Shown here in pieces: positions 9,599 through 37,999 of a stretch of 37,999 nucleotides of DNA. The stretch is taken from the NCBI RefSeq assembly GCF_016863295.1, contig NZ_BOOP01000050.1, forward strand, positions 1 through 37,999, written 5' to 3'. The notes beneath the pieces are model-generated. The model ran no database searches, was not told the origin of the DNA, and worked only from the letters and a program-made list of their open reading frames with translations. The translations under genes were made by a program, and so were the position numbers. Source of the stretch: Planotetraspora phitsanulokensis (lineage in GTDB: Bacteria; Actinomycetota; Actinomycetes; Streptosporangiales; Streptosporangiaceae). How positions within the stretch are numbered: the stretch's first letter is position 1; each line of letters opens with the position of its first letter.

Positions 9599-10480
9599 AT
9601 GGGAGAGATCCTGGTCGGCACGGCGTCGTGGACGGACGCCACACTCCTGCGGTCCGGCTGGTACCCGCCGGACGCCACGACGCCGGAGGAACGCCTTCGG
9701 TACTACGCGAACCGGTTCCCGCTTGTGGAGGTGGATTCGACGTACTACGCCCTGCCCGCAGCCGAGACGGTGCGATCGTGGGTCCGGCGGACCCCGCAGG
9801 GCTTCACCTTCGACGTCAAGGCGTTCTCATTGCTGACCTGTCATCCGACCCGTCCGGCGGCGCTGCCCAAGGAGTTGCGGATCGAATCCGGTACGGGCAG
9901 GAGGAACCTCTATGTGCGGGACCTGGATCACGGACGCGCCGACAAGGTATGGGAACGCTTCGTCTCCGCGCTGTTACCGATCCGCGAGGCCGGCAAGCTC
10001 GGCGCGGTGCTCTTCCAGTTCCCACGATGGTTCCCGATCGGCAGGCGCAACAAGAACTACATCCTCGAATGCAAACGGCGGTGTGACCCGTTGCGAATGT
10101 CGGTCGAGTTCCGCAATCGAACCTGGATGACTGAGGACAACCAGGCCGAGACGCTGGACTTCCTGCGCTCGCACGACATCCCCTACGTTTGCGTCGACAT
10201 GCCCCAAGGGCATCCCTGCTCGATTCCCCCTGTTGTGGCGGCCACGGCTGACCTCGAAATAGTCAGGTTCCACGGCCACAGCGACAAGTGGACCAGCCAC
10301 GACATTCACGAACGCTTCGGCTATCTCTACTCCACCGAGGAACTGCGGGAGTGGGCGCCGAAGCTGCACGAGCTGGCCGGGGAGACCTCCAGCACGCACG
10401 CGCTCATGAACAACTGCTACCGCGACTACGCGCAAACCAACGCCCGGCAACTCGCGGATCTGTTGAGAGCATTCGAATAG
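9599..10480 (+). CDS. DUF72 domain protein
   Basis: A 293-residue DUF72 (YecE-like) protein with a TIM-barrel fold. Typical blocks are the N-terminal LVGTASWTDATLL (5-17), FPLVEVDSTYYALPA (40-54), TPQGFTFDVKAF, the barrel strand MSVEFRNRTWM, and the end NNCYRDYAQTNARQLADLL. In YecE proteins these Glu/Arg/Asn residues line the barrel pocket; the reaction is unknown. The GTGAG before the ATG is a modest RBS, and the 23-base gap after the dehydrogenase suggests co-transcription. It is complete and in good codon register. Confidence 0.9.
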   Translation: MGEILVGTASWTDATLLRSGWYPPDATTPEERLRYYANRFPLVEVDSTYYALPAAETVRSWVRRTPQGFTFDVKAFSLLTCHPTRPAALPKELRIESGTGRRNLYVRDLDHGRADKVWERFVSALLPIREAGKLGAVLFQFPRWFPIGRRNKNYILECKRRCDPLRMSVEFRNRTWMTEDNQAETLDFLRSHDIPYVCVDMPQGHPCSIPPVVAATADLEIVRFHGHSDKWTSHDIHERFGYLYSTEELREWAPKLHELAGETSSTHALMNNCYRDYAQTNARQLADLLRAFE

Positions 10481-10516
10481 GGTTCGGTCGATGGCCTGAC
10501 CAGGCTGCGGCTCGCG

Positions 10517-10606
10517 GTGGTCATCTCCGCGGCGATCGCCGCCTTGGGCACCTGGTTGTGGTTCGTCCGGCCCCTCGTCTCGCTTCTCCGCGACAACGAC
10601 AAGTAG
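10517..10606 (+). CDS. Possible small membrane peptide
   Basis: After the DUF72 stop the same frame stays open to 10606 and encodes one membrane helix (AVVISAAIAALGTWLWFV) followed by RPLVSLLRDNDK. The only good in-frame start is GTG at 10517 (29 residues), with no clear RBS; a CTG at 10496 would include the basic TRLRL start expected before a membrane helix. Either a small operon-end protein or a remnant. Confidence 0.3.
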   Translation: MVISAAIAALGTWLWFVRPLVSLLRDNDK

Positions 10607-10661
10607 CGCGGACCAAAGCGGACTGCGCGATGCCGGCCGCCTCATGCATTCTTTCCGCCCT

Positions 10662-11618
10662 CTACGCGTTCAGCCGGGGCAGGATCTCGACCGAGTAGAA
10701 GGAGAAGAAGCCCTCCTGGTCGGGACCGATCTGGGAGATGTAGACCTCGTCGAACCCGGCCTCGACGTACTGCCTTATCGACCGGAGATGGTCGTCGACA
10801 GACGGCCCGCAGGGCACGTTCTCCGTCGCCTCCTCCACGGTGACGAGTTGGGCGAGCTGCTCGAAATGGCGCGGCAGCGGCAGGAGCTGGTTGGCCTCGC
10901 CGGGAATCGCGCTCGTCGGCCACAACCGGTGCACCGTCTCACGCGCACTGCCCTCGTCATGGGCCCAGCAGACCTTGATGCCCGCCGCTGTGGGCTTCCC
11001 TGTGCCGCCCGCCTTGTGGAACTGTTCGACGAGATCACGGTCGGGTGAGGTGGAGATGTACCCGTCGCCGGCCCGTCCGGCGAGTTCGACCGCCTTGGGA
11101 CCGAATCCGGAGATGTAGACGGGCGGCGGCGTGTCCGGCAGCGAGTAGATCCGTGCCGTATCCACGTCGTAGAACTCGCCCCGGTGGGTGACGAGTTCGC
11201 CGCTCCACAGTTTCCGGATGAGCTCCAGCGCCTCCTCCAGCATCCGTTGCCGTTCCTCCGCAGGCGGCCACGGATCACCGAGGATATGCTCGTTGAGCGC
11301 CTCCCCCGTGCCGACCCCGAGCCGGAACCTCCCGTCGAGCAGGATCTGGGCGGTGGCCGCGGCCTGGGCGATGATCGCGGGGTGGATCCGGATGATCGGG
11401 CAGGTGACCGCGGTGGTCACGGGCAGCGAGGTGGCCTCCGAGATCGCTCCGATGACCGACCAGACGAACGAGCTCTGCCCCTGTTCGTCGAGCCAGGGAT
11501 GAAAGTGGTCGGAGATCCACAGAGCCTCGAACCCGGCCTGCTCAGCCAGTTTGGCCTGCCGTACGAGCGCCTTGGGGTCGTGCTCCTCGCTCGAGAGGAA
11601 GTATCCGAATGTGGTCAT
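10662..11618 (-). CDS. F420-dependent LLM-class oxidoreductase (glucose-6-phosphate dehydrogenase-like)
   Basis: A 318-residue luciferase-like flavin/F420 enzyme. The ATG at 11618 gives the family start MTTFGYFLSSEEHDP; no strong RBS is visible. The active-site stretch SDHFHPW (36-42) aligns with that of mycobacterial Fgd, where the His and Trp act in hydride transfer to coenzyme F420. GVGTGEALNE (101-110) holds the conserved Glu. The C-terminus keeps FDEVYISQIGPDQEGFFSF. The short family around Fgd contains many enzymes of unknown substrate, so oxidation of glucose 6-phosphate is not assured. It is transcribed toward the DUF72 block. F420 use is in line with an actinobacterial host. Confidence 0.9.
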   Translation of the reverse strand: MTTFGYFLSSEEHDPKALVRQAKLAEQAGFEALWISDHFHPWLDEQGQSSFVWSVIGAISEATSLPVTTAVTCPIIRIHPAIIAQAAATAQILLDGRFRLGVGTGEALNEHILGDPWPPAEERQRMLEEALELIRKLWSGELVTHRGEFYDVDTARIYSLPDTPPPVYISGFGPKAVELAGRAGDGYISTSPDRDLVEQFHKAGGTGKPTAAGIKVCWAHDEGSARETVHRLWPTSAIPGEANQLLPLPRHFEQLAQLVTVEEATENVPCGPSVDDHLRSIRQYVEAGFDEVYISQIGPDQEGFFSFYSVEILPRLNA

Positions 11619-29305: not shown

Positions 29306-29619
29306 GGCAGGGGGTCGGCGCTTGATCCTGCCGCCTGTCGAACCACGCTTGCCTCGAAGTACAGCGGATTCACGCCGATGAGGCTCATTCCAATGGCGGA
29401 CGTGCCGCTGGATCGGCACACGTAAAAAAGAGCTGTGCCCCGGTTGCATGCGTGCAGAGGCAGGTCCGGGGCTTATGCCGCCGAGTTTACAGCACCCGCC
29501 CGGGGTTGCTGCGGATCTGAAGCGCCGCGGGTCGCGTGGCATGATGCAATGCCGGTCCGTTCGCAGCTAAGGGTGGTTGTACCAGGTTCTGGACCTGGAT
29601 CCTCTTCGGTGCCGTGTTC
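29306..29619. other. Intergenic region with hairpins
   Basis: CCCCGG (29438-29443) pairs with CCGGGG (29466-29471). TGTACCA at 29578-29584 followed by TTCTGGACC resembles a poor copy of the palindrome at 30404. No gene seen. Confidence 0.35.
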
Positions 29620-30300
29620 TCACAATTCGTGATGCTGGAACGTCGTGCACTCGCCAGAACGCCACGGGCAGCAGCTGTGATGGTGGTCCACCCAGAGGTC
29701 CGCTACCTGGACGCCCCGCATAAATAGATCTTGTCGGCTATCAGACGTCTGCTCGGTCTGCGTGGATCGGTGCCCGGCGACTCGCATCTGCCACATGTAG
29801 CGCCTGTGGCCGTGGCGGGTTTTATCACGGGTGTGTCGCTGACACGCGCGTGCCCGGCCCGTGCCACCCGCGCCAGGCGCGGGTCCTGATTGCGCCGCCT
29901 CGAACATGGCTGTAGGCATCAAGCACGCCGATCCGGGGGAATGCGGCGATGACATGGTGGAACAGGCCGTGTCGGATCCGCGGTTCGTCTCCCGGTCGTG
30001 TGTGAGCACGATCCGGGCTGTTGGGCGGTTGACCTCCCACGCTGATGGTCGGGCTGTCGAGGATTCCAGGATGAGGCTGGCCTCCGCCGCATCCTTAAGC
30101 AGTTGCGTTGCCGCTGATTGCGCACGGAGTTCTTCGGCGAGATTCAACTGCTTCCCGTGGATGAACTGCAGGACTGAGTGAATTTCTGACGCGAGCTGTG
30201 CAGCGTGCTGGATGAGCCAGGCGGAGGATGGCGATCCGGTGGAGACCGTTTGGGGCGGTGTAAGCCGCTCGCTGGATGTGCTATTGGCGACTGTGATCAC
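29620..30300 (-). CDS. Hypothetical protein divergent from the XRE regulator
   Basis: A 226-residue protein. GTG 30300 is preceded by GGGAGGAGA, an excellent RBS. Residues about 25-75 are helical: SAWLIQHAAQLASEIHSVLQ, then FIHGKQLNLAEELRAQ and TQLLKDAAEASLILE. The part up to about residue 105 looks like ordinary protein. The C-terminal half is rich in His, Arg, Cys and Ser (HHHSCCPWRSGEC near the end) and may be out of frame, so the original gene could have ended or shifted near 30000. Divergent transcription from the XRE gene across a perfect palindrome suggests it is the regulator's target. Family unknown. Confidence 0.45.
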   Translation of the reverse strand: MITVANSTSSERLTPPQTVSTGSPSSAWLIQHAAQLASEIHSVLQFIHGKQLNLAEELRAQSAATQLLKDAAEASLILESSTARPSAWEVNRPTARIVLTHDRETNRGSDTACSTMSSPHSPGSACLMPTAMFEAAQSGPAPGAGGTGRARACQRHTRDKTRHGHRRYMWQMRVAGHRSTQTEQTSDSRQDLFMRGVQVADLWVDHHHSCCPWRSGECTTFQHHEL

Positions 30301-30403
30301 TGGCTCTCCTCCCGAGGGCTGCGCTGTAGGGGCGCGGGACAAAGGCGGTGCTGAGGCAGCATTGCGGATACTCGCGGCGGGCGTCCGGCCACTTGCCGCG
30401 ATA

Positions 30404-30421
30404 TGTACCAAACTTGGTACA
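30404..30421. promoter_or_regulatory. Perfect palindromic operator candidate
   Basis: TGTACCAA-AC-TTGGTACA: 8-base perfect arms with a 2-base centre, in the gap between the divergent genes at 30300 and 30457. It lies 36 bases before the XRE start and 104 bases before the other start. A dimeric XRE repressor acting on both genes is the simplest reading. Confidence 0.6.
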
Positions 30422-30456
30422 GACCTTGAAGGATCATGCCCACCAGGTTTGGGTAG

Positions 30457-30699
30457 GTGCACGCATCGATCCCGCCACGCCTCGCCGAACTGCGAAGACA
30501 GTTCGGTCTGCGGCTACGCGAGATACGCGAGGAGCACGATCTGACCCAGGAACGGCTGGGAGAACTGGCTGGCTTGGACCGCAAGACCATCAACCGGATC
30601 GAGAACGGCATGTACAGCCCGCGACTGGACAACATCTTCCAGATCGCCGACGCCCTTGGAATCACAGCCCGCGAACTCTTCCCGCGTGGGCTGTCGTGA
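30457..30699 (+). CDS. XRE-family transcriptional regulator
   Basis: An 80-residue protein consisting almost only of a Cro/C1-type helix-turn-helix (LREIREEHDLTQERLGELAG, then DRKTINRIENGMYSPRLDN and IFQIADALGITARELF). The recognition helix is in GLDRKTINRIENG. The listed start is GTG 30457, with only a weak AGG upstream; a later in-frame start would cut into the domain. It lies next to the perfect palindrome at 30404, its probable own operator, and is divergent from the unknown gene at 30300. An immunity-like or antitoxin-like pairing is possible but not shown. Confidence 0.85.
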   Translation: MHASIPPRLAELRRQFGLRLREIREEHDLTQERLGELAGLDRKTINRIENGMYSPRLDNIFQIADALGITARELFPRGLS

Positions 30700-30739
30700 G
30701 CGCACCTCTGCTCAACATCCCGAGGGCAGTCCCGCAGTT

Positions 30740-30769
30740 GGGTGACGCGCATTTCGCGCCGCGCCACCC
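30740..30769. terminator. Hairpin after the XRE gene
   Basis: GGGTGACGCG (30740-30749) pairs with CGCGCCACCC (30760-30769) with one mismatch. No T-run. It lies 40 bases after the XRE stop. Confidence 0.35.
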
Positions 30770-30893
30770 GGCACCTGTCTAGTGCCCGAAAAACACGGAT
30801 GCGGCCCCAGCGCCTGCAACATCACATCGACGTCATGGAAGAGCGCACGCCATACTCCTCGATACAGGTACGTTGCTCCGAATCCACTTCTCC

Positions 30894-31262
30894 CTACGGG
30901 CGCGCCGCCCGGGATACATGTCGAGTGGTTGCCCATGTATCGATCTGTTCCAACGCGGCACGCAGGGCAGCACCATCCTCGGTGAGGGCGTACGTGATCC
31001 TGGTTGGCGGACCGCCGTCTACCTCGCGGCGAATGAGTCCTTGGTCTGCGAGATCACGCAAGCGTTCGGTCAAGATACGGCGGGAAACACCGGGAATCGC
31101 CTGGGCCAGATCGCTGAAGCGCGCCTCACGTTGGCACAGTAAGTACAGCACCTGAGGGACCCAGCGCCGGCTGAGTAGATCCAGCGCCGCCGCAGTCGCA
31201 TCAGGTAGGAGCAGCTTGGCCGAAACCCTGCAGGGCGGAGCTGCGCTGGTGTTAAATCCCAT
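30894..31262 (-). CDS. HxlR-type winged-helix regulator
   Basis: A 122-residue HxlR/MarR-like regulator. The ATG at 31262 has GGAG upstream; longer starts up to 31388 exist. The N-terminus AALDLLSRRWVPQVLYLLC is the characteristic first helix of HxlR proteins (normally cGKWx-x-x-I-L). The recognition helix is in the segment FSDLAQAIPGVSRRILTERL, and the wing holds GLIRREVDGGPPTRITYAL. Ends with LRAALEQIDTWATTR. HxlR regulators often sense electrophiles and control divergent redox genes. No such neighbour is seen here; it is divergent from the transposition-like module at 31588. Confidence 0.85.
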   Translation of the reverse strand: MGFNTSAAPPCRVSAKLLLPDATAAALDLLSRRWVPQVLYLLCQREARFSDLAQAIPGVSRRILTERLRDLADQGLIRREVDGGPPTRITYALTEDGAALRAALEQIDTWATTRHVSRAARP

Positions 31263-31587
31263 CTTGGTTACTCCAGACAACCAGATCACGGTGTAGCCAT
31301 CGCCGGGTATCGCCTGCCCGGTCGGCAAGACCAGCGTAGTCACCGCCATCTGACACAACCGCATTGCACAGATCTTTACCAAAAACACGGCGAGAGGCTT
31401 GTGAGATGTCGATTCCAGGATGCCTGCCTGCGGTCCGCTGGGACGACTTTCCTTTCCCGCGTAGTGCCGCGTCGGCCGACTCGAGAAGCAACCTCAGCTG
31501 CATTCAGCAGGAGATACACACCTCGGGCCAACTGTCCTGCAGGTTTGAATCGACGCGTGCTTGCGGCCACGCCCCCCAAGGTCTGCG
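31263..31587. other. Left flank of the first AAA module
   Basis: About 325 bases, less GC-rich in places, with no gene I can support and no trace of the transposase tail that precedes the other AAA gene. A left transposon end would be expected here or further left; I could not identify one by eye. Confidence 0.4.
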
Positions 31588-32361
31588 ATGAGCACGTCCC
31601 GCCTGGGCTCCGACCAGGAGGAAGATCACTACCTATCAGTCGAAGGGACGAATGTCGTACCTACCGACAGTTTGAACGTTACGCTGAACAACCTCACCGA
31701 TGTTGTCACCACCGCAGGAATGGGTTGCATCTACGGAGACGCAGGCCTAGGTAAGACCTTGGCGGTCAATCAGGCACTGCGCGCCCTGGCGCCGGACTGC
31801 ACAATACGCCTGCAGTTCCGGAGCCGATCCCGTACCCGCGACATCCGCCATCTATTGTTCGACGCCCTAGAGATCGACGGCACCCCGGCGACCAAGCCGA
31901 TCGTGTTGGACCATCTACTCAAACGAGTCCTTTCCGAGCGATTCCGGGTGTTGGTGTGCGACGAAGCTCAGTGGATGCTGCCGGAGTGTTTCGAGTATTG
32001 GCGTTATCTGTGGGACGACCCATGCACGGAGCTCGCCCTGGTGTTCGTCGGAGGCGGTGACTGCTATCAGAAGCTGCGGAGCGAGTCGGTCTTGTCCTCA
32101 CGCATTCGCATCTGGCAGCAATTTCACCGCATGACCGGCGATCAGGTACTGAAGTCAATTCCCGAATATCATCCGCTATGGGCCAATGTCGACCCCGATG
32201 ACATCCTTTTCGCCGACAGTCATGCCTGCAACGGCAATTTCCGCGCGTGGGCGAAGCTCACTGCTCATGCTGTGATCGCCTTGTCTAAATCAGAACGCGC
32301 GACGCTTGATCGACAGTTTCTGGCTCGCCTAGTCAGCCGGATAGGCGGTCGAGGTGCCTAA
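31588..32361 (+). CDS. TniB/TnsC-like AAA+ ATPase, module 1
   Basis: A 257-residue AAA+ ATPase of the TniB/MuB/TnsC type, which in transposons selects targets and activates a DDE transposase. Walker A is GDAGLGKT (50-57), Walker B VLVCDEAQ (121-128), a sensor-like VFVGGGD is at 152-158, and Arg172 in LSSRI is a likely arginine finger. The pattern CDEAQWM...ECFEYWR is shared with the second ATPase at 37037 and the two align along their whole length, about half of the residues being identical by eye. ATG 31588 is chosen by comparison with that copy; upstream GGTCTGCG is a weak RBS. The next gene overlaps its stop. No transposase gene precedes it. Confidence 0.85.
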   Translation: MSTSRLGSDQEEDHYLSVEGTNVVPTDSLNVTLNNLTDVVTTAGMGCIYGDAGLGKTLAVNQALRALAPDCTIRLQFRSRSRTRDIRHLLFDALEIDGTPATKPIVLDHLLKRVLSERFRVLVCDEAQWMLPECFEYWRYLWDDPCTELALVFVGGGDCYQKLRSESVLSSRIRIWQQFHRMTGDQVLKSIPEYHPLWANVDPDDILFADSHACNGNFRAWAKLTAHAVIALSKSERATLDRQFLARLVSRIGGRGA

Positions 32362-33865
32362 AGCGCGAATGTCCGGCAAGGTCACCGTAATGTTCGACTC
32401 GACCGATGACTTCTCCGTCGCCAGGGCGGCATGGAGGCTCCACGCGCCTCTCCTTGGCCGCATCATCGTGGATCCGACGCCTTCTGTGCACAGCACGGCA
32501 GCTCTCGCTCATGATGTGCTGGCGGCGCTCGGCAAGCCCCCGCATCGGATCGCCACCGAGGGGATATCCTCCGATCGCCAGTCCTGGCGGGCGGCCGCGG
32601 CATGGATCCTCGGGGAGCGCATCCAGCAGTTGATCGTGCTCAGGGCACATCTGCAGAGTCCGGACCGCTGGCTCAAGATGATCGAATTGCAGCGGGTCAC
32701 CGCTATCCACATGGTCCTCATCTGTCACTCGAGGTCGCTTCCGCCGGCCATTGAGGAAATACTGGCCACAGGTGAGAACCAGCGGGTAACTTGCGGTCTC
32801 GAGTCGGCACTCGAACCCGTGGCGGACCTTGAACGACACGACGGTTGGCAGGAATCTGGACAAGCAGCCCCATCGGAGCTGCCGTCCTTGCCGAGTAGCG
32901 AGTTCACCCGATTTCGTGCGGACGCCTACCGGCAATTGTCCAACGACGAGTTCTCTGCAGTCGACGTCGAGTACGGTCGTGGCATTGATGCAGCGTGCGC
33001 GTGGCTGGCATCGCATATCGGCTACCGCGCTGATACACCGCCCACGTATAGCATCCGCTCGGTCGTGGCGCCGTTCCTGCTCCCTGTGGACCTTGAACGC
33101 AGCGCGGCGACGCTGGCCAAGATGTACTCCGATGCGCAGCTGGAAGGATTAGCCGAAGGACTTTGGTGTCTAGGCCGGAAGCGGCCCACTTCGGACCGTT
33201 ACCCGTACCCCTGGGATGACGAAGGTGGTCTTCAAGTTTTCCTGACTGACCTCGTGGCCGATAGCTCCAGCCAGCGTCACACACTAGCCCGGGTCCGCGG
33301 TGCCCAAGCCGGCTTCCTTCTGCACGGTCTCCTCCTGCACGCTCTTCCTGATTTGAGCACTAGCGGGCCGGGCGTCGGAGGCCCGTCTTTCACCCCCGCG
33401 ATGGCGGCCCGCATCCGGACCCGCATCGCACATCCTCAACGGGCGGCAGCGCTCGCCACCGCCCTGTTCACTCATGCCAACCATGACTCACTCGCGCGCA
33501 TCCTGATCAGCCAGCTGCGACCAGACGCCACAAGCCTGCAAATGCCTCTGCGCGATCGTGTCGTGTCCTACGCCGTCCCAGCCCCTGCCCGAGGCCTGCT
33601 GCGTGCTGCTCAACACTTCGCCGGCCTTCGCATCTCCTCGGAGTCCACGGGCAATCCCTGGCAACTTCTCGGCCCGGGCACCGGGTCACTCGGAGATCTC
33701 CTCCAGGAAGACGCTGCGATCTGCAGCGTGGTGCTGCCTGCGCGTCTCGACGGCCATTCAGAAGAGCCATGGCACTGCATGGCATCGTGCTGGTGGGTCG
33801 CCGATCCCTTACATGGACCCGAGCCGAACGACTGCGCCAGTCAGACCCTGAAGAAGCCGTTGTGA
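32354..33865 (+). CDS. Module protein B (about 500 residues), module 1
   Basis: A 503-residue protein of no family I recognise. GTG 32354 overlaps the stop of the ATPase gene by 8 bases; ATG 32369 or 32390 are alternative starts. Residues about 36-130 look like an AAA/TniB fold without its catalytic parts: the strand DPTPS, then LAHDVLAALGKPP, AAAWILGERI and LIVLRAHLQS, where a Walker B would have D-E but R-A stands instead, then AIHMVLICHS. The long C-terminal part has LPSLPSSEFTRFRADAYRQL, VRGAQAGFLLHGLLL near 315 and RIAHPQRAAALATALFTHAN. All of these are mirrored in the paralogue at 35449. Likely an accessory partner of the ATPase, by gene coupling only. Confidence 0.75.
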   Translation: MPKARMSGKVTVMFDSTDDFSVARAAWRLHAPLLGRIIVDPTPSVHSTAALAHDVLAALGKPPHRIATEGISSDRQSWRAAAAWILGERIQQLIVLRAHLQSPDRWLKMIELQRVTAIHMVLICHSRSLPPAIEEILATGENQRVTCGLESALEPVADLERHDGWQESGQAAPSELPSLPSSEFTRFRADAYRQLSNDEFSAVDVEYGRGIDAACAWLASHIGYRADTPPTYSIRSVVAPFLLPVDLERSAATLAKMYSDAQLEGLAEGLWCLGRKRPTSDRYPYPWDDEGGLQVFLTDLVADSSSQRHTLARVRGAQAGFLLHGLLLHALPDLSTSGPGVGGPSFTPAMAARIRTRIAHPQRAAALATALFTHANHDSLARILISQLRPDATSLQMPLRDRVVSYAVPAPARGLLRAAQHFAGLRISSESTGNPWQLLGPGTGSLGDLLQEDAAICSVVLPARLDGHSEEPWHCMASCWWVADPLHGPEPNDCASQTLKKPL

Positions 33866-34641
33866 CCGAGCCACTCATCAATCATGCGCTCATCCGTGCA
33901 CGAGTCGCCGCACTTGGCCTCGCTGATGAATTCGCCGCACGCACAGGCGTTCACCTGGCCGAATTGGAAATTGTCGTACGGCCCGAGCTCTCAAGCGTCC
34001 GCCTCCTGCTTCGAATTGCCGCCGTTCTTGACCTCGATCCCGGCGACCTCATCGCGAGGCCGGCTGGGCTACCTGCTGACAACTCAGCAGACGAGGACCG
34101 TGCAGATGACCTCGACGACCACGTCGACGATAAACTCGCTGAAGCCGTCCTCGCCGAACATGAGGCTTTCACTTTCGACGAGCTCGCCGACATCCTCGGC
34201 TGGACTCACGGTCGCCTCGACGCGGCCCTCAACGCCTTGGAAGTCAGGCTCGCTGACACACCCCACCGTCTAATCCGAACCGCAGACATCGTCGAACTGA
34301 CGGCTCACACGACGATCCTTCCGCCTGCCGCGTGGCGTCGGCTCGTCGCGTGGCGGCGGGGACGAGCCCTATTGACGCCGCAAGAAGCTTCCGTGATTGT
34401 TGACGTTATCCGCCTGGGAATCCTGCGTCCATTCTTCGCGGGGACTACACTAATGAAGTCGTACTTCGACCCAGCTTCTCATCGCGACCTCATAAGTCGT
34501 CAGCTCCTGGCGCTGCCGCCGACGGCGCTACCTTCACCCGGGACGCTTTACGAGATAAGTTGCCACCCTGATGTGATGTTCGCGCTTCGCCTCGCCACCG
34601 AACCGTCTGTGGACCATCCTGTCGATGGCCGCATGTGGTAA
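33862..34641 (+). CDS. Module protein C: XRE-like HTH plus winged-helix, module 1
   Basis: A 259-residue protein starting at GTG 33862, which overlaps the TGA of gene B (GTGA). Residues about 20-66 (DEFAARTGVHLAELEIVVRP, then SVRLLLRIAAVLDLDPGDLI) are a Cro/C1-type HTH. An acidic linker (about 72-92) follows, then FTFDELADILGWTHGRLDAA (about 108-127), a winged-helix-like element, and further helices in the C-terminal half. The order matches the paralogue at 34749. Probably a DNA-binding protein that acts with B and the ATPase; TniQ/TnsD-like target recognition is possible, but it has no zinc ligands and no sequence likeness to TniQ that I can see. Confidence 0.7.
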   Translation: MTEPLINHALIRARVAALGLADEFAARTGVHLAELEIVVRPELSSVRLLLRIAAVLDLDPGDLIARPAGLPADNSADEDRADDLDDHVDDKLAEAVLAEHEAFTFDELADILGWTHGRLDAALNALEVRLADTPHRLIRTADIVELTAHTTILPPAAWRRLVAWRRGRALLTPQEASVIVDVIRLGILRPFFAGTTLMKSYFDPASHRDLISRQLLALPPTALPSPGTLYEISCHPDVMFALRLATEPSVDHPVDGRMW

Positions 34642-34748
34642 TTTGCGCCAATACATAGGTCGGTCCAGTAATCCATTTGGGCGCCCAACCTAATAAACTC
34701 CTCACAAAAACCGGCACGCGATCGAAGAATTCAATAAAGATTTTCAGA
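34642..34748. other. AT-richer convergent gap with a palindrome
   Basis: The two modules end here, 107 bases apart. TTGGGCGCCCAA (34677-34688) is a perfect 12-base palindrome. The gap is clearly less GC-rich than the window. It could be a bidirectional terminator or a recombination point. Confidence 0.4.
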
Positions 34749-35456
34749 TCAGTCCGGCAGAGTTCCTATACATAGTCCGAAAATTGTGTCCGGGTGAGGC
34801 GCCAGACGGTAACGACTGTCACTGGTTTCGGTCACTTCCAACGGTTTACGAGTTGTGGCCATCAGGCGGCGCATGAGGATATGCGATATCTCCCATTGAA
34901 AAGCAATGCCGGAGTGGAGGGCCACTCCCCCGGCGTCACGTTCCTCGTGGATCAAGCGGAGCAGGACGGCAGCTTCTCTGGGAGTCGGAGGTATTTGTGC
35001 CTGCTTCGCTGTGCTTAACACGATTTCCGCTTTCGGGGGAAGAACTCCTGCGCGACATTCGAGACGGAGACGGTTGTCGACCTGCACTAGCTGCAGGGAT
35101 GTACTGCAAAGACGGTCTGCCAATCGTTTAGCTGCGCCTCGGAGGCGTTGGGGTGACCAGCCCAAAGCGTCCACAAGTTCATTGTCGGCGAGTTCTCCAT
35201 GGCAGGCTAGAGCCGCCTCCAGCATAAGATCATCGTCTTGTGGAGGAAGCGCAGTTCCCCCGAGCTCTGGGATAAGGAGCTCGGCAGGACTCATGTTCAG
35301 CGCAGCACTGATGCGGGTGATCAACGCGAGGCTAATACTTTCTGGTGGCAGCTGGTCATTCAATGCTCCTGGAGAGATGCCTGTACGTATAGTGAACTCT
35401 GTCGCGCTCATGCCGAGTTCTTTTATTCGACGCCTGATGGTATCGATGTCAAGCAT
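34749..35456 (-). CDS. Module protein C: XRE-like HTH plus winged-helix, module 2
   Basis: A 235-residue paralogue of the protein at 33862. ATG 35456 overlaps the TGA of gene B (ATGCTTGA). The HTH is residues about 14-62: GMSATEFTIRTGISPGALND, then SLALITRISAALNMSPAELL. The second element is NELVDALGWSPQRLRGAAKR (about 87-106), then a beta-rich part (LQLVQVDNRLRLEC) and the helix-rich end. Identity with copy 1 is low, but order, spacing and the DALGW/DILGW core agree. Likely DNA binding. Confidence 0.7.
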   Translation of the reverse strand: MLDIDTIRRRIKELGMSATEFTIRTGISPGALNDQLPPESISLALITRISAALNMSPAELLIPELGGTALPPQDDDLMLEAALACHGELADNELVDALGWSPQRLRGAAKRLADRLCSTSLQLVQVDNRLRLECRAGVLPPKAEIVLSTAKQAQIPPTPREAAVLLRLIHEERDAGGVALHSGIAFQWEISHILMRRLMATTRKPLEVTETSDSRYRLAPHPDTIFGLCIGTLPD

Positions 35457-36999
35457 TTGATCGATCCGACTCCCGGTCTGCTTTCTCCCACCCGGGGACA
35501 ACTATTCGTCTCGCGTCGTGCACGGGTTTTCCTACTATCCAGCAATGGGTCCGGCCATGCCAGGGACGAATGCCAGTGGTTCCCCCGTGCGCTATGGACG
35601 GCACAGTGAGGGCGCAGATTCGGGCTGTTTCGATGAGGCGCCGATTCCGCCGTCCGATGCCATCCTCCAGCAGGAGGTCAGTCGGTTGCTTCCCGTCCAG
35701 TAGGTGAAAAGTGCGCGCGGCTGCCAGAAGTGAGCGACCATAGCTGGGAATACTGTAAGTAAGTTGCTGATCGCTCGGGTTCGCGCCGTCATATACGCTT
35801 ACGGTGATCGCCAGCGTCGAACCGTCTTCGCTGAGGCTGTCAATGCGGACGTTGCCCAGTATGCGAGCGTTGAGTCCTGTGAGCAGCGCGGTGGCCAACG
35901 CTGCGGCATGCACCGGATGCGCCACAGCGGTGCGGATTCGATCCGCATCGCAGTGAGGGAGTCGCGCGATGAGACCGTAGCCCGTGCAACTTCCCAACAG
36001 GGCAGGCACCGTTAGCAGTATGCCATGTAAGAAGAAGCCCGCCTGCGCTCCGCGGATGCGCGTGATCGCGTGCTCTCGCGTTGGGCAATCAGCCACCAGT
36101 TCCGCTAAGAAGATCTGTAGCGACGGCAAGTCTGCTCGGTACGGGTAGGGTTCGAGATCCTCGGGACCAACCGCAAGCATCTGGTCGGCAACCAAGATCG
36201 GGAGTGGCCGCGACGGGTCCAACGACACTTCGCGGAGTTCACCAGGATCGCTCCCGATAGGCAATCCTTGCGGCAGTCGGGCCGGCAAAAACGCCTCGTG
36301 CCCATGGTGTTCTCTGATCCATGTACATGCCCGGTCCATCCCGTATCGGTAAACGATATCGAACCGAGTGAAATTCACCCTATCCAGTTGTCTGTGCGCG
36401 TCAGCGCGGAAGTGGAGGAAATCGCTGCTCGGCACCGAAGGCAGCGGACGTTCCCCTGACTCCGAGGTATACGGACTCGGCACCAGACCATGGGCTGTGC
36501 AGCGCACCACGGCACGCGCCGGCGTTGACCGAAGCGACGGGTTGTGCCTGAGTTCGGCCGCGGCGAGGGCCTGGGCGACGCTCTCAACGATGCGGATGTC
36601 GCCAGTGCCTGGCAGTTGGCTCGACCACTCCCGCGCTGCGTGCGCATGCCATATCAGTGTCATCGTGGCACCGCAGTCAGAAGCGAGTTGGATGAGAAAC
36701 CTGCGCTGATCTGTGGCAAGCAGGTGCGCCCGAAGCACAATGATGTGCCAGATACCTTCCGCTAGAGTCCAGGCAGCCGCAGCTCGCGCCCACACGTCAT
36801 GAATCCGTTCTGCAGACCGAGAACAGGAAGTCAGCTGGTCGATCGGCTTTCCTAACGCGGCCAACACATCAAGGCAGAGTTGGCTAACACTCCTCGTACT
36901 GGGGGTGGGGTGGATCGTAAGCTGCCCTGTTAACGGGTCGTGAGCGTCCAAGGCAGCGGCAGTGCACTCAACATCATCATCAGGGTCTAGGACGACCAT
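35449..36999 (-). CDS. Module protein B (about 500 residues), module 2
   Basis: A 516-residue paralogue of the protein at 32354. ATG 36999 has CAGGAG upstream; a TTG at 37032 would add 11 residues. Shared blocks in the same order: HPTPS (30-34), LDVLAALGKP (43-52), AAAAWTLAEG (73-82), IIVLRAHLL (86-94), TMTLIWHAH (112-120), LPSVPSSDFLHFRADAHRQL, IRGAQAGFFLHGILL near 315, and AVAHPVHAAALATALLTGLN. The missing Walker residues in the AAA-like part (R-A for D-E) are conserved in both copies, so this is ancestral and not decay. C-terminal end WHGRTHCWIVGKPVHD matches WHCMASCWWVADPLHG of copy 1. Role unknown. Confidence 0.75.
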   Translation of the reverse strand: MVVLDPDDDVECTAAALDAHDPLTGQLTIHPTPSTRSVSQLCLDVLAALGKPIDQLTSCSRSAERIHDVWARAAAAWTLAEGIWHIIVLRAHLLATDQRRFLIQLASDCGATMTLIWHAHAAREWSSQLPGTGDIRIVESVAQALAAAELRHNPSLRSTPARAVVRCTAHGLVPSPYTSESGERPLPSVPSSDFLHFRADAHRQLDRVNFTRFDIVYRYGMDRACTWIREHHGHEAFLPARLPQGLPIGSDPGELREVSLDPSRPLPILVADQMLAVGPEDLEPYPYRADLPSLQIFLAELVADCPTREHAITRIRGAQAGFFLHGILLTVPALLGSCTGYGLIARLPHCDADRIRTAVAHPVHAAALATALLTGLNARILGNVRIDSLSEDGSTLAITVSVYDGANPSDQQLTYSIPSYGRSLLAAARTFHLLDGKQPTDLLLEDGIGRRNRRLIETARICALTVPSIAHGGTTGIRPWHGRTHCWIVGKPVHDARRIVVPGWEKADRESDRSNA

Positions 37000-37036
37000 G
37001 ACAGATGCTCCTGCGTGCTGGCTCTGAGACAATTAC

Positions 37037-37816
37037 TCACCTACGCCCGCCAAGCCTCTTGAACACTCGCTTCAGCAAGTCACGATCGACAATCCGCTGC
37101 TCTGATCGATTCAGTTCCAGCAGGGTATGCACGGTGATCTTTGCCCATGAGCGGAAGTTTCCATGCCCTGCATACTTATCCACGAACTTCAGGTCCTCGG
37201 AGTCGACGTCCTCCCAGATGTGATGGAAATCAGGCATCACATCCTCTATCTGATTTATTGTCATACTCCGGTACTCCTGCCAAATGAAGATCCGTGACGA
37301 CAGCATCGGCTCACGACGCAAAACCCTGTAACAGTCACCACCCCCAACAAATATGACAGCCATCTGAGTGTATTTGTTATCCCACAAGTGCCGCCAGTAC
37401 TCAAAGCACTCTGTTGACAGCCACTGCGCTTCATCGCAGATGAATATCCGAAACTCCTCAGACAAGACACTTTTGAGTAGCTTGTCGAATTCAGCTGGCC
37501 CTCGGGGCTCTTTGCCCCCGATCTCCAAGGCTTCAAAGAGCATGCTGCGGATGTAGCGAGGTGTCGGGCGATCACGAAACTGGATGCGGTGGGTCAACTC
37601 CGGTGCCAGTGTTCTCAGCGAGGAGTTTACTGCAAACGTCTTGCCTAGGCCGGCGTTTCCGTGAATGCACATCATTGCTCGCGCGCTGATAACATCTTTG
37701 AGATTCTCGAGCGTTTCGCGCATTGATTCTGTCGCGACTTCGTTGCTGTCGACGAGACCAAGGTACTGGTCGTCGATAGCGGCTCCAAGGGAGCGGCCTT
37801 TTCCGGACATGCTCAT
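37037..37816 (-). CDS. TniB/TnsC-like AAA+ ATPase, module 2
   Basis: A 259-residue AAA+ ATPase closely related to the one at 31588. GGAGGT precedes ATG 37816, whose A is the last base of the stop of the transposase-like gene (TAATG). Walker A is GNAGLGKT (53-60), Walker B IFICDEAQ (124-131), the sensor strand VIFVGGGD, and Arg in MLSSRIFIWQEY is the likely finger. Base composition is visibly lower in GC than in the window as a whole, which supports recent transfer. In the TniA-TniB order of Tn5053/Tn7-like elements the ATPase follows the transposase exactly as here. Gene B begins after 37 bases. Confidence 0.9.
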   Translation of the reverse strand: MSMSGKGRSLGAAIDDQYLGLVDSNEVATESMRETLENLKDVISARAMMCIHGNAGLGKTFAVNSSLRTLAPELTHRIQFRDRPTPRYIRSMLFEALEIGGKEPRGPAEFDKLLKSVLSEEFRIFICDEAQWLSTECFEYWRHLWDNKYTQMAVIFVGGGDCYRVLRREPMLSSRIFIWQEYRSMTINQIEDVMPDFHHIWEDVDSEDLKFVDKYAGHGNFRSWAKITVHTLLELNRSEQRIVDRDLLKRVFKRLGGRR

Positions 37817-37999
37817 TATTGACCTCCGTGCTTGTTTTGTTGGCGCCGCCCTTTCGCAGTCCCGGGTAGAACCCCCGTGGACGGCAACCCATCTGTTGTG
37901 ATTCGAGCGCGCGCCTGTTTCACCTCCTCGATCTCTGCGGGAGATGCCTTGTCTGATAGTTCAGCGGAGCCGAGATAGCGACCGGTTCGTGCGTCGAAG
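37816..37999 (-). CDS. Transposase-like gene (Mu/TniA type), C-terminal end only
   Basis: The last 60 codons of a gene that begins outside the window. It reads FDARTGRYLGSAELSDKASP, then AEIEEVKQARARI and a basic tail (KGRRQQNKHGGQ). Mu-type and TniA-type DDE transposases end with a small beta-barrel carrying V-x-D-x-x-TG-x-YLG, followed by such a helix and basic tail. The coupled AAA+ ATPase downstream supports this. The catalytic DDE core is not visible, so the assignment rests on the tail motif and gene order. Confidence 0.65.
   Translation of the reverse strand, partial: FDARTGRYLGSAELSDKASPAEIEEVKQARARITTDGLPSTGVLPGTAKGRRQQNKHGGQ

Follow-up and report, generated by a model that had tools for sequence, protein, structure and literature searches.

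Two sets of three related genes face each other tail to tail near the end of a bacterial contig, and a transposase gene leads one of them; what use would a transposon have for the other? The question is raised by a 37,999-nucleotide stretch of Planotetraspora phitsanulokensis DNA (contig NZ_BOOP01000050.1 of assembly GCF_016863295.1), called the window below, which is the complete contig C50 of genome G000 (9.17 Mb, 95 contigs). A forward set AAA'-B'-C' (31588-34641) faces a reverse set C-B-AAA (34749-37816), where AAA and AAA' denote AAA+ ATPases and B and C the genes that follow them. The conserved transposition module seen here is a real one, of the Mu/Tn7 kind, and its selector is possibly undescribed so far. 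On balance, and judging from sequence, we take the locus for the end of a MuA/MuB-type transposon in which B and C probably replace TniQ/TnsD as the selector and AAA'-B'-C' would be a second selector module for the same transposase.

Mu/TnsB-type transposition genes and two convergent sets

All six open reading frames (ORFs) of the two sets are open over the coordinates in Table 1. A preliminary description of the window, made from its letters and its ORFs, had called the six genes paralogous in order, and BLASTP between the sets confirms this, with E-values far beyond chance for all three pairs. It had also counted overlaps at four of the five gene junctions, which is correct. AAA'/B' and B/C overlap by 8 nt each and B'/C' by 4 nt, and the transposase tail and AAA have 1 nt in common in the TAATG junction that the description had pointed out. 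The AAA-B junction is free of overlap, with a gap of 37 nt, or of 4 nt if B starts at the TTG at 37032. Recent copying of one module was considered and rejected, the DNA similarity between the sets being patchy (at best 65% over 445 bp).

C50 terminates at 37999, which truncates the first gene of the reverse set after 60 residues; the window itself shows the C-terminus of this protein alone, and the evidence for a DDE core comes from relatives and from an intact 561-residue relative in the same genome (G000:C51:146-1831). The 60-residue tail matches the C-terminus of a Streptomyces filipinensis transposase with 61% identity over 31 residues. The C51 transposase scores above the curated cut-off of Mu-transpos_C and below that of rve, and it matches PHROG 310 ('transposase') at 6.5e-58. 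Its closest solved chains in the PDB are TnsB (5e-11), from entries that we take to belong to a type V-K CRISPR-associated transposon (CAST). The IS481 transposase model was matched by one relative at 1.2e-10, far below the model cut-off. All 23 aligned relative transposases have the catalytic D, D and E unchanged, the last two separated by 35 residues in the reference; the C51 protein is outside this alignment, and the three residues can be read in it. The tail matches, the intact C51 copy and the invariant triad together uphold the earlier proposal that the reverse set is headed by a DDE transposase of the Mu/TnsB type, and they speak against an upstream gene devoid of a DDE core.

The window tail and C51 are near-identical, not identical (99% over 98 bp, 96% over 136 bp). 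A 180-bp piece of the transposase C-terminus in C51 is missing from the window copy, and the opening ~95 bp of C51 duplicate a stretch from within the C51 transposase gene. The pair may reflect a second copy, a population variant or a misassembly at a repeat. Comparison of window 37766-37999 with L166 (G000:C51 1-1831) gives two near-identical transposase/AAA junctions in G000.

A DDE transposase cuts and joins DNA, and a MuB/TnsC-type AAA+ protein marks target DNA in an ATP-dependent manner and activates the transposase. AAA and AAA' both match AAA_22 (Pfam) and PHROG 296 ('DNA transposition protein'); PHROGs 310 and 296 are presumably MuA- and MuB-like, respectively. AAA' additionally matches TnsC of type V-K CASTs in PADLOC and, weakly, Pfam TniB (E 0.17), and a PDB search with the ATPase gave no match. 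Among 40 relative ATPases, the Walker A pattern is present in all 40 and the Walker B pattern in 37. The PHROG 296 and PADLOC TnsC matches agree with the MuB/TnsC-like assignment made at the outset.

Gene order was counted in 33 loci (L006, L007, L037-L052, L055-L066 and L168-L170), with neighbours defined as genes within ~1 kb on the same strand; the count excludes the window, the flank stretches L053 and L054, the short loci L028-L036, the plasmid loci L115-L117 (annotation only) and further short loci. These 33 loci hold 41 ATPase genes, which have a transposase upstream in 36 cases, B downstream in 34, both in 33, and C after B as well in 20. The order transposase-AAA-B(-C) is conserved in this sense, a point that the preliminary description had raised as a check. 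Because most loci had been found via the ATPase, a search with a B profile was added. It detected B in 29 of 341 genomes, and an ATPase was found no more than 6 kb away at 26 of its 36 B places; conversely, 24 of the 30 strongest among 62 listed ATPase places lie within 6 kb of B. B mostly accompanies the ATPase. One profile scan of the genome contigs gave a single relative.

Variants of the order were seen in several elements. The Streptomyces plasmid loci L060, L061, L064 and L065 have the order transposase-AAA-AAA-B, with a second ATPase before B; L060 carries an extra short B after C, and L065 a third ATPase-like gene. L168 (G398:C1) holds two tandem transposase-AAA sets at 7.7-11.7 kb, within 12 kb of the contig end; its second transposase is a fragment, and ATPase copies also lie near the other contig end and on a second contig.

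Table 1. Features at the right end of the window, with the evidence for each.
Feature	Position	Strand	Evidence
Transposase C-terminus, Mu/TnsB-type DDE, cut by contig end	37816..37998	-	tblastn E 2.9e-6; profile 1.4e-7
AAA, MuB/TnsC-like AAA+ ATPase, Walker A and B intact	37037..37816	-	AAA_22 E 5.4e-17; PHROG 296 6.3e-15
B	35449..36999 (alternative start TTG 37032)	-	Profile-profile comparison with shuffled controls
C, N-terminal Cro/C1 (Xre) helix-turn-helix (HTH)	34749..35456	-	HTH_26 25.4 bits, cut-off 22
Spacer between converging sets, 107 bp, AT-richer	34642..34748	.	44% GC vs 56 and 61% in flanking genes
C', paralogue of C	33862..34641	+	31% protein identity to C, E 8e-23; HTH_26 15.4 bits, below cut-off
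B', paralogue of B	32354..33865	+	35% protein identity to B, E 4.5e-58
AAA', paralogue of AAA, Walker motifs intact	31588..32361	+	52% protein identity to AAA over 244 residues, E 3.5e-101; PHROG 296 5.1e-17; PADLOC TnsC 8.5e-4
HxlR-family regulator, divergent from AAA'	30894..31388 (homologous part ~30897-31253)	-	PF01638 3e-21
Flanking block including Xre gene (30457-30699)	29388..30686	+	92% identical to left flank of G002 element

B and C in the place of TniQ/TnsD

B and C occupy the place that TniQ/TnsD holds in Tn7-like elements, and a Pfam search at E up to 1 gave no TniQ or TnsD match in B, C, B' or C'. This agrees with the substitution put forward in the preliminary description, and we infer the role of target selector for the two genes. 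B and B' are without any Pfam, NCBIfam, PADLOC or PHROG match at E up to 1.

Profile-profile comparison (hhalign) was carried out between 27 B proteins and 40 ATPases, 17 tyrosine recombinases and family D, a recombinase-like family whose gene follows C in L007, L037, L040 and L041. The N-terminal half of B aligned with AAA at a score of 39.9 (probability 53%), with the Walker B region of the ATPase opposite the conserved VVLRAHLL of B. The C-terminal half aligned with D at 40.7 (47%) and with the 17 tyrosine recombinases at 32.6 (9%), and D itself aligned with the tyrosine recombinases at 89.8 (97%). By comparison, unrelated profile pairs score 13.9 to 22.9, and 40 column-shuffled B alignments reached at most 16.7 against the ATPase, 18.4 against the recombinases and 16.1 against D. 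In single-sequence searches against the ATPase profile, 8 of 27 B proteins and 5 of 270 shuffled ones were found at E 10. The Walker A pattern is present in 0/27 B. The box-I-Arg and HxLR-like patterns are likewise found in 0/27 B and each in two of seven D proteins; the 17 recombinases had been chosen by similar patterns and are not an independent positive control for this motif count. A PDB search with the B profile returned four Ssr1698 chains, and XerA at E 0.77. The N-half of B is likely AAA-like and devoid of a P-loop. For the C-half, the comparisons are suggestive of a recombinase-like domain without catalytic motifs, a homology that they indicate weakly. D genes lie beside some elements, on one or both sides (L040 and L041 at ~4.4-5.6 kb; L041 11480-12796; L007 2976-4184).

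C has a Cro/C1-type HTH by the HTH_26 model, for which C' falls below the cut-off (Table 1), and its profile matches in the PDB are the small HTH protein dh434 and HipB (E 0.009-0.02). In L057 and L169, a C-like segment continues B within one ORF. This fusion argues that B and C would work together.

Element ends were recognized in the same two relatives. L057 (pA19BH1, Arthrobacter), an element of 4.3 kb, has a terminal inverted repeat of 48 bp (90%, E 1e-13) and L169 (G524) one of 28 bp (93%); both begin TGAGAATGC and contain TGTCAGTAA. Between these ends, profiles detect the transposase, the ATPase, and B with its C-like tail. No target duplication at the L057 or L169 ends was convincing by eye. 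The other loci tried gave no clear repeats. Of 11 stretches compared, 10 produced only weak matches, as did three of four in a second comparison; the L041 and L040 matches (E 3e-4 and 0.009) fall inside D genes. In the window, for which the preliminary description had suggested a search for terminal repeats and target duplications, neither was found; its right side is lost at the contig end. TGTCAG-type motifs had been considered as marking a transposon end there, and this was rejected, as was an end at the 81% DNA similarity of window 31103-31170 to L007 9529-9596, which lies inside HxlR genes.

Other repeats were seen near two relatives. L007 has a perfect 19-bp inverted repeat with a 2-bp loop at 10115-10154, past the HxlR gene on the upstream side of the transposase, with further TGACA/TGTCA motifs close by. 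At L007 11384-12958, ~15 degenerate 45-nt hairpin-like repeats follow one another at ~70-bp spacing, with some wider gaps, outside any ORF of at least 180 residues; similar stretches occur in G000:C37. Four direct repeats ending TGTCAG are present in L054 at ~11290-11370 (G002:C37 near 175.3 kb), resembling the end of another such element.

In the mechanism that we propose, B would attach to the AAA filament, or nucleate it, through its AAA-like N-half, which lacks a P-loop, and its recombinase-like C-half would read target DNA together with the HTH protein C. AAA'-B'-C' would be a diverged second selector that is served by the same transposase and gives it another target address; the two modules would be two routes, a use that we infer. 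This second set probably came from a complete related element, lost the transposase and would have been kept for a second targeting route. A bolder version, which we put forward tentatively, is that B is a chimeric dead-enzyme selector, formed from a P-loop-less MuB-like AAA domain and a dead tyrosine recombinase, that sits in the ATPase filament and homes together with C, and that some elements hold two tail-to-tail modules and with them two addresses per transposase.

Several observations weigh against the proposed mechanism. One or both neighbours are missing at 8 of the 41 ATPase genes. Among the nine short, mostly weak ATPase loci L028-L036, B was found in 0/9 and a transposase piece in 3/9, and by annotation L116 has a transposase and an ATPase followed by no B-like gene. 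Ten of the 36 B places have no ATPase within 6 kb, eight of them weak (E above 1e-21) and two, in G153 and G157, stronger. S. lividans SLP2 (L063) carries B alone (9968-11080), near its right end; over the 20 kb inspected, neither such an ATPase nor a transposase of this family was seen. The hhalign probabilities for B are modest. In single-sequence searches at E 0.01, the ATPase profile was reached by 1/27 B and the recombinases or D by 0/27; against the recombinases, the best shuffled B (E 0.63) did better than the best real one (6.8). Neither a target sequence nor a duplication explicable by B or C was found, and the estimate of constraint on second sets, given below, comes from one pair of relatives (G002 and G160) and not from the window. 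SLP2 is one counted locus without an ATPase; near its lone B, an unrelated IS5-like transposase is annotated.

The second module and competing readings

Convergent second B'-C' sets, without an ATPase of their own, are present in G002 (same genus, L007) and in G160 (another genus, L037). The two elements have 79-80% DNA identity over ~9 kb, suggesting transfer from one genus to another. For this pair, the ratio of non-synonymous to synonymous substitution rates (dN/dS) is 0.115 for AAA, 0.169 for the transposase and 0.464 for D; it is 0.363 and 0.331 for the main B and C, and 0.375 and 0.291 for the second B and C. With such similar values, the second set in these two relatives is about as constrained as the first. 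In the B tree, the main Bs of this group stand together, apart from the second Bs, at 81/92. The C tree makes the same split at 58/74 and the AAA tree is uninformative; the trees of C and AAA do not settle one origin for the second modules.

The HxlR gene next to AAA' has 55 and 57% amino acid identity to the HxlR genes of L037 and L007, respectively, which are divergent from the transposase. Because HxlR stands beside AAA' as it stands beside the transposase in these two loci, the simplest history for the window is one of retention: a related complete element supplied the module, which was kept after its transposase had been lost. That the left module once had a transposase and lost it, as proposed in the preliminary description, is plausible on this ground, though a search of 30601-31900 gave no transposase remnant (best E 0.08). 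The companion idea, that one element inserted beside or into an older relative, stands in part; against it, the tail-to-tail B'-C' arrangement recurs in G002 and G160 and is constrained there like B-C. In L048, HxlR precedes an ATPase-B pair with no transposase between, and one transposase lies downstream of B. No HxlR was found near the C51 transposase.

Left of the HxlR gene, the block shared with the G002 flank (Table 1) loses its similarity at 30686, and the elements themselves are very different. It had no match in three other genomes of the genus, in each of which 40 of ~200 candidate stretches were scored. The block may be a shared insertion spot, and could be either flank or part of the element.

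The rival reading that survives best makes the left module a leftover: two related elements would have come to lie tail to tail, one of them losing its transposase, and AAA'-B'-C' would be idle and decaying. The HxlR gene beside AAA' does resemble the upstream end of a complete element, no transposase remnant was seen at the left, B' and B are deeply diverged, and G000 has a further transposase copy and a rearranged piece. A decaying remnant is, for the left module in G000, a fair rival. It is set against three left genes that are open and joined by tight overlaps, intact Walker motifs in AAA', and convergent B'-C' sets that two other genomes have kept under about the same constraint as B-C. 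We consider an idle left module rather unlikely.

B and C might instead be regulators or immunity factors, with C, for example, repressing the operon and B capping AAA to limit transposition or give target immunity. A Cro/C1-type HTH in C would suit such a role, and an inactive AAA paralogue might serve as a dominant-negative cap. The fusion of a C-like segment to B in L057 and L169 speaks against it, as does the HxlR regulator that some elements already have, and no other conserved candidate was seen for the TniQ place. We hold this reading to be improbable, and favour B and C as selector.

A rival that we also think improbable is that the family targets chromosome or plasmid ends and that the window contig is the subtelomeric arm of a linear replicon. 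The ATPase is present in 96 plasmid records, of which the 75 with listed positions were used. Its best place lies at most 15 kb from the record end in 46 of 61 Streptomyces/Embleya plasmid records, with 7.4 expected, a set in which several records are near-copies and some are circular (L061, L064), with an arbitrary record end. In G398, G582 and G671 (genus g87, taken for Streptomyces), contigs of 9.2-9.7 Mb carry copies at both ends, ~8-11 kb inwards, and in S. filipinensis the gene for the telomere protein Tpg adjoins the element. The bias is absent from other actinobacterial plasmid records, where 2 of 14 places fall within 15 kb of an end and 2.1 are expected (one Streptomycetaceae record, 43 kb from the end, is counted among these 14); strict end targeting was rejected as a rule for the whole family on this count. 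Several full-B elements lie mid-contig, such as that of G279 at 4.56 of 9.43 Mb, and 10 of 20 scanned window ORFs left of the element have ordinary, non-mobile Pfam matches. The window ORFs at 3.5-26.1 kb include genes for a patatin, an alcohol dehydrogenase, a DUF72 protein, an Orn/Lys/Arg decarboxylase, luciferase-like and haem-oxygenase-like proteins and SpoIIE.

A phage origin is rejected, since the ATPase had no match in 50,697 phage records and 0/25 pattern stretches in viral contigs encode a relative; the Pfam scan recognized no phage genes among the 20 window ORFs.

Relation to known transposons

Mu/Tn7-type transposons are under development as insertion tools. Their steering depends, to our knowledge, on a small set of selectors (TniQ/TnsD, TnsE, TnsF and Cas effectors). 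If our reading of B is true, a selector made from a dead version of the element's own ATPase and a dead recombinase would be a different solution, and it would hint at how selectors arise. Elements with two diverged modules under similar constraint would make 'one transposase, two targets' directly testable. The literature that we examined on comparable selectors contains no description of B or C, although this does not prove that none exists.

Telomeric transposons of linear bacterial genomes, reportedly described by Hsieh and colleagues in Science in 2025, are said to use the telomere as one element boundary. In plasmid records of the Streptomyces branch of the present family, the ATPase mostly lies near record ends, unlike the non-Streptomyces plasmid records with their lack of end bias, and this branch may be partly covered by the published elements. 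We found no literature linking 'telomeric transposons' with Streptomyces. A variety of CAST found alongside one class of telomeric transposons lacks TniQ-TnsD, according to an excerpt of its description (PMC12669027), and an excerpt on a Rhodococcus Tn7-like element describes one with TniQ (PMC12915292).

TnsF of Tn6022, a Tn7-like element, offers a close comparison for B. In the available part of its description, TnsF is a selector with an inactivated tyrosine-recombinase domain and N-terminal zinc fingers that works with TniQ; the same part notes, for the Mu branch of TnsC homologues, a conserved gene of its own adjoining MuB (PMC10293859). As far as that partial account goes, B may resemble TnsF in having a recombinase-like domain, a likeness that is weak in B, and B differs by its AAA-like N-half and by the lack of TniQ. 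Comparison of B and B' with Pfam, at E-values up to 1, gave no domain and so no zinc fingers of the TnsF type; the N-half of B aligns with the AAA profile instead.

The family resembles phage Mu MuA/MuB: its DDE transposase has a Mu C-terminal domain, and a MuB-like AAA+ ATPase comes next. It is unlike Mu in having B and C after the ATPase, and an ATPase without a match in phage records. Compared with Tn7-like and Tn5053-like elements, the missing piece, as far as the contig reaches, is a TniQ/TnsD match in any of B, C, B' and C'. The order of transposase, ATPase and selector position is that of Tn7 and Tn5053/Tn402 (TnsB/TniA, TnsC/TniB, TniQ/TnsD). The likeness to Tn7-like elements extends to the transposase, with TnsB as its closest solved chains, and to the inverted repeats of the relatives, which contain repeated units ending TGTCAGT.

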